The notes beneath the pieces were generated by a model, which was given only the letters and a program-made list of their open reading frames with translations, was not told the origin of the DNA and searched no databases. A program made the position numbers and the translations under genes. From Bacilli bacterium (GTDB taxonomy: Bacteria > Bacillota_I > Bacilli_A > RFN20 > CAG-826), in assembly GCA_024413875.1 (NCBI GenBank), contig JAKSVY010000025.1:1-24082 (forward strand): a stretch of 24,082 nt of DNA, given 5' to 3'. Numbering within the stretch: the stretch's first letter is position 1; each line of letters begins with the position of its first letter. Shown in pieces: positions 19,901-24,082 of the stretch.

Positions 19901-22123
19901 ATGAAAAAATCAAGCATTTTTGCTCTTTTGATGTCTTGCGCATTAATCGCAGGATGTAAGAGCACCGGCGGTGGTTATAGTACTAATACTGGTTCATCTG
20001 CAACAGATACAGGTACTACAGACACTGGAACAACTGACACAGGCACAGATACTACAGACACTGGTACTGACACAACTGATACTACACCTCCTCATACACA
20101 CGCAGCAACAGGTGGATATCAATACACAGATTCAGAACACTGGCAATTATGTGAATGTGGTGAAAGAGTTGGACAAACATCTCACGCTTATGATCAAAAA
20201 GTCGCAACTGAAACTTATTTCAAGTCAGGCGCAACATGTGAAGTAAAAGCACAATACTTCTATTCATGTGTTTGTGGTAAAGCAGGAACTACAACATTTG
20301 AAACTGGTGAACTTGGACCTCACACTCCATCATCAACATGGGGCTATCATGAAAGCAAACACTGGCATCCATGTGAAGTCTGTGGACAAGCAGTAGGTAC
20401 TGCAGACCACGTATGGCAAAATGTTGAAAAAGCTTCATGCTTAAAGTCTAAAGGTGACTGTGTTACTCCAACTGTCTACTACAAGTCATGTGAATGTGGA
20501 AGAAAGAGTACTGAAACATTCGAAGTTACTGCACCAGGACACAAACAAGTTGGAGATTTCCAATCTAACAATTTAACACACTGGAGACTATGTGAAAACT
20601 GTGATAAACATCTTAATGAAAACCCTCACAAATTAACTAATGTTTCAACTCATAGTGGCTCTGGAACATATAGCGATGTTAGTGGTAAATGTTCTGTATG
20701 TAATAAGACAGTTCGATATACTGCAGATGAAAGCTATACATACGAAATGTTTGTTAACGTTATTCCAACATACAAAGATGGCGGTAAATTAACAATCACA
20801 GCAACTAAAGATTCTACTGTATCAACATTTGTATACAATTTGCCTTCACTCAAAGATGATTTGGCAAAAGAAGAAGCTGATAGAGTTTATAGTGCTTACC
20901 AAGTATACGCTGCAAGCGAACTCGCTAATACTACTTATCAATTCGGTATTCATTTTGATGTTAACAATATTATTAGACTTTTACTTAGCGAAGACGCTGA
21001 AATTACAAATCCTAATAATATTGATTTAGGTGGACTTATCCCAGTTGTTCGTAAATTTAGAACTAATTGTGATGACTATCTTGCAGAAATTCCATATACA
21101 CAAACAGTTGCAAACTTCTTTGTTGAAGAAATATATACAATTACTGGTCAAGGCACAGTAGTTACTGGAACTCTTAATGGTGCTAGTGTAGAAATTGGTG
21201 ACTCAGCTAAAATTTATAATCCAGGTTCATCTACACCTATTTCAACAATTATCACTGGTATCGAATATGCAAAAAAACTCTTAGATTCTGCTGAAGCGGG
21301 TTATGAATACGGATTCCGCGTAAGAGGTGTTAACGCTTCTGACGTTGAAAGAGGAGCAAGAGTTGTTGTTGGAGGTACTGAAGTTACACCTATTACAAAA
21401 GGTACTGCATCTATTAGACTTTTCTCTAAAGTTGAAGGTGGTAGACACACACCTATTGCGACTAAATATAGACCACAACTTTATATCGGAAACACCGATG
21501 TTACTGCTCAACTTACATTTGATGTAGATATGATTTCACCAGGTGGTTATGAAGATTTAATTAACTTTGAATTAATAACATCTATGGCAATCACAAAAGG
21601 CCAATTCATTTATGTTAGAGAAGGTGGAAAAACAATTGGTGAAATGATTGTTTCAAGCACAATCTTAGCAGGTTCTACAAAACTTCAATTAGAAAACAGT
21701 TCTGATTATCACAACGGTGATTATGGCGAAGGATATATTCTTAACTTTGATGACGATGCAAATCTTACAAGCATCATGGTTGCACCAGGTGATATGAACA
21801 TTACATTAACAGAATCTGACGGTGACTCTGGTAGCTACCTTCCTTCATATGTTGCCTACAAGGTATTAACAGAACACGAAGAAGACCTTGAAATCACTTT
21901 CCAAGTTGAGCTTCCAAACGGCACAGTCCGCACTCCATTTAGATATAGCAACTACAATAACATTGGTAGCATTTCTAAAGTAGGTTATGAAAGTACATTA
22001 GTCCTTGCTGGTCAACCAGAAGACTGCCCAGAATTATTCGATGCTTCTGGCAAATGGAATTACTCAGACTCAGAAACTCTTAAACTTATTGTTTATATCG
22101 AACTCGGCACAAACGCAATGTAA
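19901..22123 (+). CDS. His/Cys-rich repeat lipoprotein with TD/TG linker
   Basis: I chose the ATG at 19901, 6 bases after GGAG (19891-19894) and giving a proper lipoprotein signal (lipobox IAGC, Cys19); an in-frame ATG at 19844 lies in the promoter region. The 740-residue protein has a low-complexity Thr/Asp/Gly linker (about 35-62), then six zinc-ribbon-like units (about 65-280): HWQLCECGE, CVCGK, HWHPCEVCGQ, CECGRK, HWRLCENCDK and CSVCNK, with a His before each pair. The rest (about 285-740) is beta-rich; residues near 410-500 (GQGTVVTGTLNGASVEIGD, VRGVNASDVERGARVVV) strongly resemble domain 2 of elongation factor Tu-like beta-barrels, an unexpected module for a lipoprotein. It is monocistronic. 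Metal or surface binding is inferred. Confidence 0.87.
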   Translation: MKKSSIFALLMSCALIAGCKSTGGGYSTNTGSSATDTGTTDTGTTDTGTDTTDTGTDTTDTTPPHTHAATGGYQYTDSEHWQLCECGERVGQTSHAYDQKVATETYFKSGATCEVKAQYFYSCVCGKAGTTTFETGELGPHTPSSTWGYHESKHWHPCEVCGQAVGTADHVWQNVEKASCLKSKGDCVTPTVYYKSCECGRKSTETFEVTAPGHKQVGDFQSNNLTHWRLCENCDKHLNENPHKLTNVSTHSGSGTYSDVSGKCSVCNKTVRYTADESYTYEMFVNVIPTYKDGGKLTITATKDSTVSTFVYNLPSLKDDLAKEEADRVYSAYQVYAASELANTTYQFGIHFDVNNIIRLLLSEDAEITNPNNIDLGGLIPVVRKFRTNCDDYLAEIPYTQTVANFFVEEIYTITGQGTVVTGTLNGASVEIGDSAKIYNPGSSTPISTIITGIEYAKKLLDSAEAGYEYGFRVRGVNASDVERGARVVVGGTEVTPITKGTASIRLFSKVEGGRHTPIATKYRPQLYIGNTDVTAQLTFDVDMISPGGYEDLINFELITSMAITKGQFIYVREGGKTIGEMIVSSTILAGSTKLQLENSSDYHNGDYGEGYILNFDDDANLTSIMVAPGDMNITLTESDGDSGSYLPSYVAYKVLTEHEEDLEITFQVELPNGTVRTPFRYSNYNNIGSISKVGYESTLVLAGQPEDCPELFDASGKWNYSDSETLKLIVYIELGTNAM
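20003..20086 (+). repeat. Thr-Asp-Thr-Gly coding repeat
   Basis: Short degenerate units of ACA/ACT, GAT/GAC and GGT/GGA/GGC codons encode repeated TDTG and TDT blocks just after the lipid anchor. Codon choice varies between units, so the DNA repeat is imperfect. It is a flexible spacer lifting the Cys/His units off the membrane. Confidence 0.75.
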
Positions 22124-22136
22124 TTAATTACTCAAT

Positions 22137-22165
22137 AAAGTTAGGCGTAAAAACCTAACTTTTTT
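22137..22165 (+). terminator. Intrinsic terminator after the second His/Cys lipoprotein gene
   Basis: AAAGTTAGG (22137-22145) pairs perfectly with CCTAACTTT (22154-22162), followed by a T run. Confidence 0.9.
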
Positions 22166-22177
22166 GTTTGCAAAAAA

Positions 22178-22186
22178 TGATATAAT
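22178..22186 (+). promoter_or_regulatory. Extended -10, probably the stranded promoter of the HAD gene
   Basis: TGATATAAT is an ideal extended -10. It lies just outside the inferred left end of the IS110 element. If the element is removed, this box would be followed by TAAGT and then the ATG of the HAD gene, the same leaderless layout seen at 14255 and 15245. At present it would transcribe into the left end of the element and its bridge RNA. Confidence 0.6.
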
Positions 22187-22213
22187 TAAGTTATCTGTTT
22201 AACAAATAAGCTA

Positions 22214-22254
22214 ATCTAATCATGTACTGGTTAGATTTTCTTTTTATCTAATCA
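22214..22254 (+). repeat. Subterminal direct repeat and hairpin in the IS left end
   Basis: ATCTAATCA occurs at 22214-22222 and 22246-22254. Between and overlapping them, AATCTAA (22213-22219) pairs with TTAGATT (22231-22237). These may be transposase contact sites or part of the RNA leader. Confidence 0.5.
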
Positions 22255-22256
22255 AG

Positions 22257-22262
22257 TATAAT
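22257..22262 (+). promoter_or_regulatory. -10 box for the bridge RNA / transposase transcript
   Basis: TATAAT lies about 8 bases before the first paired base of the predicted bridge RNA (22271), so a transcript starting near 22269 would begin right at the fold. No good -35 is visible; in this family a fuller promoter may form at the circle junction. Confidence 0.45.
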
Positions 22263-22268
22263 TAATTT

Positions 22269-22439
22269 ATGCCGTTATCCTGCTTAATTGAAATACAGCA
22301 TTGACTGTCGGACTTCATACTCAGGCATACGGCTTTTCTTTTATTCGCTAATAGGTTGTTTAACGCTCTGACGTTCCTTAACAGATAGTTCGATAAGATA
22401 AGCCGATATGAATATAAAACGGCAAGAAAGGAGACCGAC
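22269..22439 (+). ncRNA. Predicted bridge RNA of the IS110 element
   Basis: Folded by eye, the region has two similar loop structures and a 3' hairpin. Target loop: GCCGT (22271-22275) pairs with ACGGC (22329-22333), CCTG (22279-22282) with CAGG (22322-22325), and ACAG (22295-22298) with CTGT (22305-22308) around hexaloop CATTGA, leaving 12- and 13-base single-stranded arms. Donor loop: TTAT-CG-CTA (22341-22350) pairs with TAG-CG-ATAA (22386-22396), and AACG (22362-22365) with CGTT (22372-22375) around hexaloop CTCTGA. A third stem GCCG/CGGC (22402-22405, 22420-22423) follows. Known IS110 bridge RNAs, such as that of IS621, lie in the same place and have a target loop followed by a donor loop. 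The ends of the transcript are estimates. Confidence 0.72.
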
Positions 22440-23648
22440 ATGGAGTTTTATGTTGGAATCGATATTGCTAAGTATAAACATACAGTTGCAATTATCGATA
22501 ATGATGGAGTTGTTAGAAAAGAAAACTTTAATATTTCTAACAATTTAGAAGGGTTTAATTCTCTCTTAAATGAATTAGGCTTGCTCGGCCAAAAAGAGCA
22601 AATAAAAATAGGGATGGAGGCAACAGGTCACTACATGACTTGTTTAGCAAAGTTTCTCAATCGAAACGGGTACAGAGTCCAAATATATAATCCGTTTCTG
22701 ATTCACAGATTCAAAGAGTCCGAAACTTGTAATGGAGCTAAAACAGATAAATTAGATTCATTACTAATTGCTAGGTATGTATCTTTCCATACCTTTACCT
22801 CATCCCCACAATTATCTTACAACATTGAACAAGTTCGTAAAATCGAAAGAGCAAAGTATTTTTTATTCGCTGATAAAATAAGAGCTTACAATCATTTGCT
22901 AAGATATCTAGACGAAGTTTTTCCTGAATTCTGCAAATTTTTTGAAAAAAATGAAGATGGAACTAGGAAAAATATAGGTCGACATATATTTGAATCACCC
23001 ACAATTAGATGGATATTAAAAACTTATCCATCCCCTCAAAAAATAGCTAATTTAAGAGTTGAAACTGGAGAAAAATTAAGAAAGATGTCAAGAGGCTCTA
23101 TTAGTTTTAATAGATTTCAACAATTAAGAACATTGGCTAAAAATTCAATTGGTTTTGCAACCGAATCCGATGAACGAATTATCGTTTCATTAGTTAAACA
23201 AATCGAAACAATTGATAATCAAATTGATGAACTTTCTAAATCGTTGATCCCATTAATGAATGAGATTGATTCACCTATTGTTACTATTCCTGGTATGGGG
23301 ATAAATTTAGCCGCGATGATTATTGGAGAGATAGGTGATATTGCTAGATTTGATTCACCTGAAAAACTAATTAAATTCGCTGGTCTTGATATCTCTGTTT
23401 ATCAATCTGGAACAATGTGTTCAAGAGGTAGAATTACTCGTCGTGGATCACCAATATTAAGGTATGCTCTTTCACTATGTGTTCAGAAACTGAGAATCCA
23501 TTCGCCTGTATTTTCGGAATATTATTATTCAAAACTTGCTCAAGGAAAATGCACAAACGTTGCCATCATTGCAACAACAAGAAAATTGATTAGAGTCATT
23601 TGGAAGATGATGATTTCTAATAAAAAATTTGAAAACATTAATAAGTAA
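22440..23648 (+). CDS. IS110-family transposase (DEDD recombinase)
   Basis: This 402-residue protein is a typical IS110 transposase and acts as a bridge-RNA-guided recombinase. The N-terminal RuvC-like domain has GIDIAK (Asp8), GMEATGHY (Glu60) and GAKTDKLDSLL (Asp103, Asp106), matching the DEDD residues. The C-terminal Transposase_20 domain begins near PIVTIPGMG (279-287) and includes GEIGDIARF, KFAGLD and YQSG with Ser323, the likely catalytic serine that attacks DNA, then RGRITRRGSPILR. A helical insert separates the domains; the total length is usual for the IS110 family, longer than the 326 residues of IS621. The frame is intact, with AAAGGAG (22427-22433) 6 bases before the ATG, so the element is probably active or recently so. 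Confidence 0.95.
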   Translation: MEFYVGIDIAKYKHTVAIIDNDGVVRKENFNISNNLEGFNSLLNELGLLGQKEQIKIGMEATGHYMTCLAKFLNRNGYRVQIYNPFLIHRFKESETCNGAKTDKLDSLLIARYVSFHTFTSSPQLSYNIEQVRKIERAKYFLFADKIRAYNHLLRYLDEVFPEFCKFFEKNEDGTRKNIGRHIFESPTIRWILKTYPSPQKIANLRVETGEKLRKMSRGSISFNRFQQLRTLAKNSIGFATESDERIIVSLVKQIETIDNQIDELSKSLIPLMNEIDSPIVTIPGMGINLAAMIIGEIGDIARFDSPEKLIKFAGLDISVYQSGTMCSRGRITRRGSPILRYALSLCVQKLRIHSPVFSEYYYSKLAQGKCTNVAIIATTRKLIRVIWKMMISNKKFENINK

Positions 23649-23676
23649 AAATTAACTATTTCACAAAATTTTAAAA

Positions 23677-23701
23677 AAAGCATAGCTTTAAGATGTTTTT
23701 G
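23677..23701 (+). terminator. Weak hairpin after the transposase gene
   Basis: AAAGC (23677-23681) pairs with GCTTT (23685-23689) around ATA, and a T run follows only after 6 bases. It might weakly end the transposase transcript. The remaining right end is AT-rich with AAAATTTT-type palindromes. Confidence 0.3.
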
Positions 23702-23727
23702 TTATACACTTTTTAAAAATTTTATAA

Positions 23728-23733
23728 GATAAT
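23728..23733 (+). promoter_or_regulatory. -10 box of the HAD gene supplied by the IS right end
   Basis: GATAAT (overlapping TAAGAT at 23725-23730) lies 6 bases before the ATG at 23740, so transcription should start at the ATG. There is no ribosome site. TATACA (23703-23708) is a possible but distant -35 (19 bases). In a circular form of the element the same box would face the left end and the bridge RNA. Confidence 0.5.
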
Positions 23734-23739
23734 AGTTGT

Positions 23740-24082
23740 ATGATTAAAGTAGTGCTTTGGGATATTGATGGAACAGTTCTTGATTTTATAGCAGCGGAAC
23801 ACGCGGCAATCAAGAAATGTTTTGAAGTCGTTAATTTAGGTGAATGCACAGATGAAATGATTCATAATTACTCAATCATTAATGTAAAGTGGTGGGAACG
23901 ACTTGAACGTAATGAAATTACTAAGAAAGAAGTTCTTGTTGGACGCTTTGTGGAATTCTTCTCTAAGTATGGTTTAAACACCTCAAAAGCTGAAGTTTTT
24001 AACAGTGAATATCAGGTTCGTTTAGGTGACTTTATCTACTATCAAGAACATGCTAGAGAAGTATTAAATTACCTTAAAGGTA
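23740..24082 (+). CDS. YjjG-like HAD phosphatase, 3' end cut by window
   Basis: The gene runs off the right edge after 114 codons. The N-terminus has HAD motif I, LWDIDGTVLDF (nucleophile Asp8, acid Asp10), followed by the helical cap of the YjjG/YfnB branch: NYSIINVKWWERLERNEITKKE, of which the key part is NVKWWERLERNEIT, then VGRFVEFFSKYGL, and 'HAREVLNYLKG'. Proteins of this branch are nucleotidases acting on (non-canonical) pyrimidine nucleoside monophosphates and related phosphates in the cytoplasm. Motifs II to IV lie outside the window. The ATG has no Shine-Dalgarno site; it directly follows the inferred right end of the IS110 element. Family call is good, substrate is inferred. Confidence 0.85.
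   Translation, partial: MIKVVLWDIDGTVLDFIAAEHAAIKKCFEVVNLGECTDEMIHNYSIINVKWWERLERNEITKKEVLVGRFVEFFSKYGLNTSKAEVFNSEYQVRLGDFIYYQEHAREVLNYLKG

Follow-up and report, generated by a model that had tools for sequence, protein, structure and literature searches.

Organization of the element and its surroundings

The stretch of DNA analyzed here (24,082 nt, hereafter the window) carries an intact IS110-group element, recognized from its sequence, a profile search and comparison with relatives, in which the recombinase gene (22440-23648) lies downstream of a predicted bridge RNA (about 22268-22430; Table 1). Positions 1-22123, upstream of the element, are occupied by what we take from the translations to be a run of large surface or lipoprotein-like proteins, some with Cys/His-rich repeats, and presumably also encode an ABC-type ATPase and a ZIP-like membrane protein. 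The left end of the element (22193-22439, 247 nt) is longer than the right end (23649-23739, 91 nt) and contains a non-coding RNA region.

The recombinase has a DEDD (RuvC-like) domain and a Tnp domain with the catalytic Ser, and its profile aligns with IS621 in the PDB. Residues D8, E60, D103, D106 and S323-G324 were invariant among 20 aligned relatives; in IS621, according to the excerpts of PMC11208158, the DEDD residues and S241-G242 are either catalytic themselves or assist catalysis.

Table 1. Coordinates of the element, its predicted RNA and the flanking target features in the window.
Feature	Position	Strand	Basis
TATAAT, -10 box (left target) of the promoter that the element occupies	22181-22186	+	Sequence; -10-like hexamer in 47/47 left flanks
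TAAGTT, six target bases separating the -10 box from the core	22187-22192	+	Sequence; spacing 6 in 23/47
Left core AT	22193-22194	+	AT 44, GT 3 of 47 left junctions; L006 empty-site comparison
Left end 5' of the bridge RNA: hairpins around a T tract; TATAAT at 22257-22262, possibly a promoter element	22195-22267	+	Fold z -3.26
Predicted bridge RNA, limits approximate	22268-22430	+	Alignments, consensus folds, guide matching
Target loop: CCTG/CAGG, ACAG/CTGT, loop CATTGA	22279-22325
Left target guide AATTGAAA(T); the final T, invariant among copies, may be a linker	22286-22294	+
Right target guide TTCAT, complement of ATGAA, covering core and start codon	22314-22318	+	CAT in 25/26 readable copies
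AC, putative handshake-type bases opposite the GT at the right end of the element	22319-22320	+	AC/GC in 23/26 copies; model in excerpts of PMC11208158
Donor loop: AACG/CGTT, loop CTCTGA	about 22345-22392
Left donor guide TAATAGGTTGT, resembling right end TAATAGTTGT	22349-22359	+	Sequence, clade alignment
Right donor guide AACAGAT, complement of left end ATCTGTT	22380-22386	+	Sequence; co-change in L010
IS110 recombinase, 402 aa	22440-23648	+	PF01548 and PF02371, both well above cut-off
Right end: -10-like GATAAT and AGTTGT (left donor site)	23728-23739	+	Same layout across clade A right ends; clade B GATAAT at spacing 7
Right core AT, first two bases of start codon ATG	23740-23741	+	AT 48/48, ATG 44/48 right ends
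Downstream gene, HAD-like hydrolase, running past the window edge	23740-24082	+	Pfam Hydrolase 21.5 bits, below cut-off 26.4; homologues in 5/224 genomes

Relatives and junction samples

A genome scan for relatives of the recombinase returned 20 loci. Eleven form clade A (L001-L010 and L019; 63-73% identity to the window recombinase; L009 and L019 are partial) and nine form clade B, assigned by element ends (L011-L018 and L020; 41-50% identity). Their hosts are gut and rumen Bacilli, mostly labelled Erysipelotrichaceae, Bacillales or Bacilli. Of 224 genomes belonging to one such family, 34 have a relative with E ≤ 1e-60, and 20 contain a match to the left-end pattern of clade A. Many copies show one end only, because contigs often end inside the element. 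Viral contigs yielded five distant loci (28-31%), and the 2,731 plasmid records were all below 60% identity.

The left-junction set comprised 47 junctions, 40 of clade A and 7 of clade B, with L006 kept in the counts although its left flank sits inside another element; the pattern search had given 40 left-end places, one of which (G057) was unlike a left end and was dropped. For the right ends, the first pattern included RTG and was biased toward ATG, and the search was repeated with those bases free. This gave 51 hits, of which 48 were kept and three (G055, G109, G009:C1) dropped for a mismatch inside the right end; seven of the 48 (G056, G063, G076, G123, G137, G174, G176) come from genomes in which no clade A left end was matched, and could be remnants or look-alikes. 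The reversed pattern, used as a control, gave 7 hits in the 224 genomes.

Element ends and the core dinucleotide

Elements of clade A begin with [AG]TCTGT and end in GATAATAGTTG[TC], while those of clade B have the left end [AG]TCTCATTAAC and the right end CTTGATAATTGTAGGT. The crossover dinucleotide at the left was AT in 44 and GT in 3 of the 47 junctions, and the bases preceding it vary; at the right all 48 ends continued with AT although the following bases had been left free in the search. The comparison thus yields a core with T in second place that is common to donor and target, as in elements of the IS621 type.

A pre-insertion site could be read for L006 (genome G006), a clade A element with an antisense clade B recombinase gene at its left and a Sir2 gene at its right, an arrangement that suggests insertion into another IS and then recombination between copies. 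Five of the eight clade B recombinase genes inspected read ATTTAAGC followed by ATAGA, and L006 reads ATTTAAGC followed by ATCTG; the copy is rearranged and the site continues ATA, not ATG. The target sequence therefore extends up to the AT, and GT is not the core. In another copy, L015, the left core is GT and the right core AT. Of the left junctions with core GT it alone has a right end that can be read, and that end reads ATG, as if the core of the target stayed at the left and that of the donor went to the right; this would fit cleavage 3' of the core as described for IS621 in the excerpts of PMC11208158.

The original prediction had proposed the same bridge RNA with a GT core, ends at 22191/22192 and 23739/23740, and a target reading TAATTAA-GT-ATGA. 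The window itself lends this some appeal: GT precedes ATG at the right end and TAATTAAGT the left end, and TCATAC in the right target guide is fully complementary to GTATGA. Yet GT is absent from the left junction of most copies, where the two bases vary and AT is what both ends have in common. The comparison of L006 with the unoccupied clade B genes also contradicts a GT core, and with the core one step left the T that IS621 needs is lacking in 13 of 47 junctions. We therefore regard this version as highly improbable. Its right boundary stands, as the 5' edge of the core, whereas related copies move the left one by one to two bases and make T22192 part of the target. By the same comparison, the core is AT at both ends, at 22193-22194 and 23740-23741. 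What remains of the match between TCATAC and GTATGA is its first part, TCAT pairing with target ATGA; the AC faces the GT of the element's own right end and is most likely a handshake-type pair between that end and the last two bases of the right target guide. AC or GC occupies this place in 23 of the 26 copies that could be read. In L010 a right end with GC is accompanied by handshake GC, but GC is also found in three copies whose genomes have GT ends, so that the pairing is consistent with the handshake model rather than strong evidence for it.

Because IS621 needs T as the second core base, a core placed one step to the left (N-T before ATG) was also considered in its own right. T occupies that place in only 34 of 47 left junctions, and C stands there in the right ends of L010 and G093, as against the AT common to both ends throughout; this candidate was rejected.

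Predicted bridge RNA and its guides

Folded alone, the RNA of the window was unremarkable (z -1.05; 32 of 200 shuffles folded as well), and a covariance-model search with it matched no Rfam family at its gathering score. The case for a bridge RNA therefore rests on the relatives. Eight target-loop stem pairs were kept in 13 of 13 clade A sequences; these are 91% alike, and hence none of the 41 predicted pairs showed compensatory change. In a sister-clade set of 11 sequences (nine of clade B together with L046 and L047, which are 43-45% identical to the window protein) 11 of 40 predicted pairs were changed on both sides. The two-sided changes fall in the outer and inner target-loop stems and in the donor-loop stems, and nearly all come from L046 and L047, the most distant members. 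Upstream of the predicted RNA, mutually exclusive hairpins can be drawn in the window (22193-22267) and in clade A left ends: a terminator-like AATCTAGCC/GGTTAGATT stem followed by a T tract, or an inverted repeat that encloses this tract (fold z between -2.7 and -3.5 for three copies of clade A; -3.26 for the window).

As in RNAs of the IS621 type, two internal loops carry guides for target and donor, with a strong signal for the left target guide and a weak one for the right guide beyond the ATG. Part of the original prediction is borne out here. Both loops lie directly before the recombinase gene at the positions given, all four guide-end matches quoted are present in the sequence, and the bridge RNA, the approximate places of its guides and the predicted covariation between guide and target hold up in related copies. 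The left target guide, placed by it at 22285-22291, is better read as 22286-22294 (AATTGAAAT) against 22184-22192 (AATTAAGTT). In the window this guide has six identical or wobble positions and mismatches at the others (6.5/9, wobbles counted as half), only a moderate match.

The fit between left guides and their own sites was evaluated by permutation on those clade A left junctions with a contig long enough to include the guide, 22 of 40, carrying 16 distinct guides; all guide permutations ignore relatedness among copies. With the guide anchored at the -10 box, the match scored 6.93/9 to the own site vs. 5.12/9 to the sites of other copies (0/50,000 permutations), and with one row per distinct guide 6.84 vs. 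4.90 (0/50,000). The signal was also seen at positions 4-7, beyond the -10 box (3.14/4 vs. 1.78/4; 0/50,000), and position 9 gave none. Anchoring at the core without a gap weakened the result (55/50,000). A guide that includes the core, as in IS621, was rejected, since it gave no signal (32,948/50,000); contiguity of guide and core of the IS621 type was not found in these copies. For the seven clade B left guides, a flexible gap gave 216/20,000 with the -10 box included and no significant match outside it (3,303/20,000). In each of the genomes G002, G054, G068 and G074, the copies that could be read carry a single guide, and G006 holds two guides. In G054 and G068, copies with the same guide are found at different spacings; the tolerance of spacing is therefore not only a product of old drift.

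The right target guide contains CAT in 25 of 26 readable copies and TAT in the remaining one, L073. Beyond the ATG it fits its own target when clades A and B are taken together (267/50,000), and no fit was seen in clade A alone (8,276/50,000). By inspection, the donor guides fit both ends of the element; in L010 the right donor guide (TACAGAT) and the left end (ATCTGTA) change together.

Insertion sites correspond to -10 boxes and start codons

The original prediction missed what the guides point to, namely a -10 box at the left and a start codon at the right. A -10-like hexamer lies 5-11 nt before the core in all 47 left flanks; a score as high occurs at 23.9% of random host positions. The hexamer is TATAAT in 24 and TAAAAT in 10 of the 47, and the spacing is 6 nt in 23. 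Matches to a -35 hexamer (at least 4 of 6) were found in 18 of the 47 flanks vs. 14.9% of control hexamers, and TGn in 14 vs. 5.7%. Both are enriched, lie beyond the reach of the guides and mark real promoters.

At the other side, right ends searched with free bases continue ATG in 44 of 48; the exceptions are three ATA, all in G171, and one ATC (G093). Elements found through their recombinase and having a readable right end read ATG in 11 of 11 cases in clade A and 7 of 7 in clade B. Open frames were counted for 57 right junctions, part of which come from the ATG-biased pattern, and five with at most 6 bases of flank were left out. The remaining 52 included 48 with ATG; 42 opened frames of at least 40 codons and 37 of at least 100, as compared with 21.6% and 13.1% of 5,631 host ATGs. 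The ten junctions lacking a 40-codon ATG frame are the three ATA, the one ATC and six with short frames (L005, L010, L160, L164, L166, L176). In G171, the ATA ends are three of the four right ends of the genome (L180, L181, L182), and the guide with TAT belongs to L073 in genome G152; a retargeted right guide could link the two.

A Pfam scan of ten downstream proteins gave hits for eight: Obg (ObgE), TruB, peptide deformylase, RimM, DNA polymerase III delta, a LytTR response regulator, Sir2 and, below its cut-off, the HAD-like hydrolase of the window. Homologues of the window gene occur in 5 of 224 genomes, and in three of them the gene start could be read. The unoccupied L197 reads TATAAT-CTCAAT-ATG and L195 reads TATGAT-TTAGCG-GTG, where the start is our own reading; the third, L196, has no clear -10 box. 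The exact empty allele of the window insertion was not found among the homologues in the 224 genomes. Sir2 loci numbered 30, with 16 readable unoccupied orthologues. Three of these (L205, L209, L223) have TAAAAT-N6-ATG or GTG, and 13 lack the layout of -10 box, six bases and start.

These data bear on the idea that the right end is a mobile promoter with its own ATG and that the sequence following it is unselected. Donor and target both have AT, so that these two letters of the start codon can be assigned to neither, which leaves room for such a reading. It is set against a third base that is not fixed (three ATA and one ATC of 48), frames that start at the N-termini of named families, and the ATG or GTG present at this place in unoccupied homologues, and we give it hardly any credence.

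Another view is that targeting is loose and that only insertions between promoter and start codon were kept, others being harmful, with the guide matches secondary. The small, gene-dense genomes of the hosts, the retention of sites before indispensable genes such as obgE and def, and the variable spacing of 5-11 nt between -10 box and core speak for it. However, left guides match their own sites at positions 4-7, beyond the -10 box, to an extent (3.14/4 vs. 1.78/4) never reached in 50,000 permutations, CAT is present in 25 of 26 right guides, and the right core is always AT. Selection does not easily produce such a guide match, and we consider survivorship of this kind unlikely.

The reading that we favor, and regard as probable from the comparison of sequences, is that of an IS110-group element whose predicted bridge RNA recognizes the junction between the -10 box and the start codon of leaderless genes. 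In the host stretches sampled, an SD-like motif preceded 71 of 153 first ATGs of genes, and a -10 box 3-10 nt upstream preceded 13 of 153; among 969 internal host ATGs, a set contaminated by true starts, the numbers were 48 and 39. Leaderless starts are thus a minority in these stretches, and the element picks a minority class.

One insertion is orthologous in two species (L079/L117 in G054 and L093 in G052), with flanks 84% identical. Its presence in both indicates that the element has been retained over long times. The left junctions differ by two bases, with an extra GT in one, and so drift of the spacing occurs too.

Proposed mechanism and the right-end promoter

In the mechanism that we propose, the bridge RNA would be expressed from the left end and its left target guide would pair with the bottom strand, over the 3' half of the -10 box and the bases that follow it. 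Pairing of the right target guide (CAT and letters of codon 2) would be with the top strand, at the start codon. Strand exchange by the recombinase would then take place at the AT core of this codon and insert a circular form of the element, and the junction of this donor circle would share the layout of the target: a -10-like box, about six bases, and AT. After insertion, the host promoter would stand before the left end, facing the element, and GATAAT with six bases of the element would stand before the ATG of the gene, which may in this way be kept expressed. GTG starts may be converted to ATG by insertion (cf. L015).

The right end of the window element indeed reads GATAAT, six bases and AT. 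Box and spacing are constant at right ends, and of the nine inspected only two, both of clade B, have a good -35 at 17 nt. A promoter consensus scan of positions 22100-23800 found 4 matches vs. 9.2 expected by shuffling, none of them at the right end or at the other boxes discussed here; the putative right-end promoter therefore rests on the -10-like box and its spacing.

A further step, to which we would give slightly less than an even chance, is RNA-guided promoter exchange. Here the bridge RNA would read a grammar of -10 box, about six bases and AT, and the stretch from the paired left segment to the core would be elastic. Insertion would place the RNA and the recombinase of the element behind a host promoter and supply the host gene with a leaderless one; even indispensable genes could in this way be hit without loss.

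Comparison with known guided elements

Bridge RNAs were described for IS621 and predicted widely in IS110 elements (PMC11208160, PMC11208158). As far as the excerpts of these two papers go, the window element resembles IS621 in having the RNA in the left end before the recombinase, with the target loop followed by the donor loop, a 5' arm resembling the left top strand, a 3' arm complementary at the right, and handshake bases after the right guides. A DEDD and Ser recombinase and T as the second core base are also shared. The core differs, being AT here and CT in IS621, which tolerates AT. The targets differ as well, a junction of -10 box and start codon here and a REP element for IS621. In addition, the left target guide of the window element is in register with the -10 box and ends a variable 0-4 nt short of the core, unlike that of IS621.

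A likeness exists also to the seekRNA elements ISEc11 and ISEc21, in which an RNA from a non-coding region guides a DEDD transposase to a short fixed target, in the excerpts of PMC11187229. The joined circle ends of these elements form a promoter, as those of the window element may do. The same excerpts report no gene-start targeting for them, and the RNA of ISEc11 lies downstream of the transposase gene.

Among open-licence papers, which are weak evidence of absence, we found no report of a bridge RNA aimed at sites of -10 box and start codon. By this analysis, the window element would be a bridge-RNA IS110 element aimed at leaderless gene starts. Should this hold, the guides are directed at the starts of genes, about as generic a site as a genome offers, and one that is imitated by the element's own end. 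This would account for the ability of the element to spread in small, gene-dense genomes without killing genes, and the recombinase would be one with an AT core and a guide for which the distance to that core may vary. It would then become testable how a bridge RNA accommodates the varying distance and how guides diverge between species yet stay on promoters.

The nearest precedent in the choice of target appears to be IS900 of Mycobacterium avium subsp. paratuberculosis, another IS110-family element aimed at gene-start signals. Its target motif CATGNNNNNNTCTCCTT contains CAT and a Shine-Dalgarno complement, according to the excerpts of PMC8141618, the reference list of which includes a 1997 title stating that IS900 targets translation initiation signals. 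Unlike IS900, clades A and B use the -10 box and ATG in sense, and an antisense arrangement of Shine-Dalgarno and start codon was not found for them. The same hosts harbor distant IS110 elements that we term clade C (L036, L038, L050, L052, L053, L054, L056; 37-40% identical to the window recombinase). When their flanks were joined, a Shine-Dalgarno sequence, a few bases and ATG were read on the opposite strand in all 7 loci, out of 11 tried, for which both sides were readable, and a GGAG, GAGG or GGGGG stretch was present in 9 of 9 readable right target guides. Judged by these sequences, clade C elements look like bridge-RNA counterparts of IS900 targeting.
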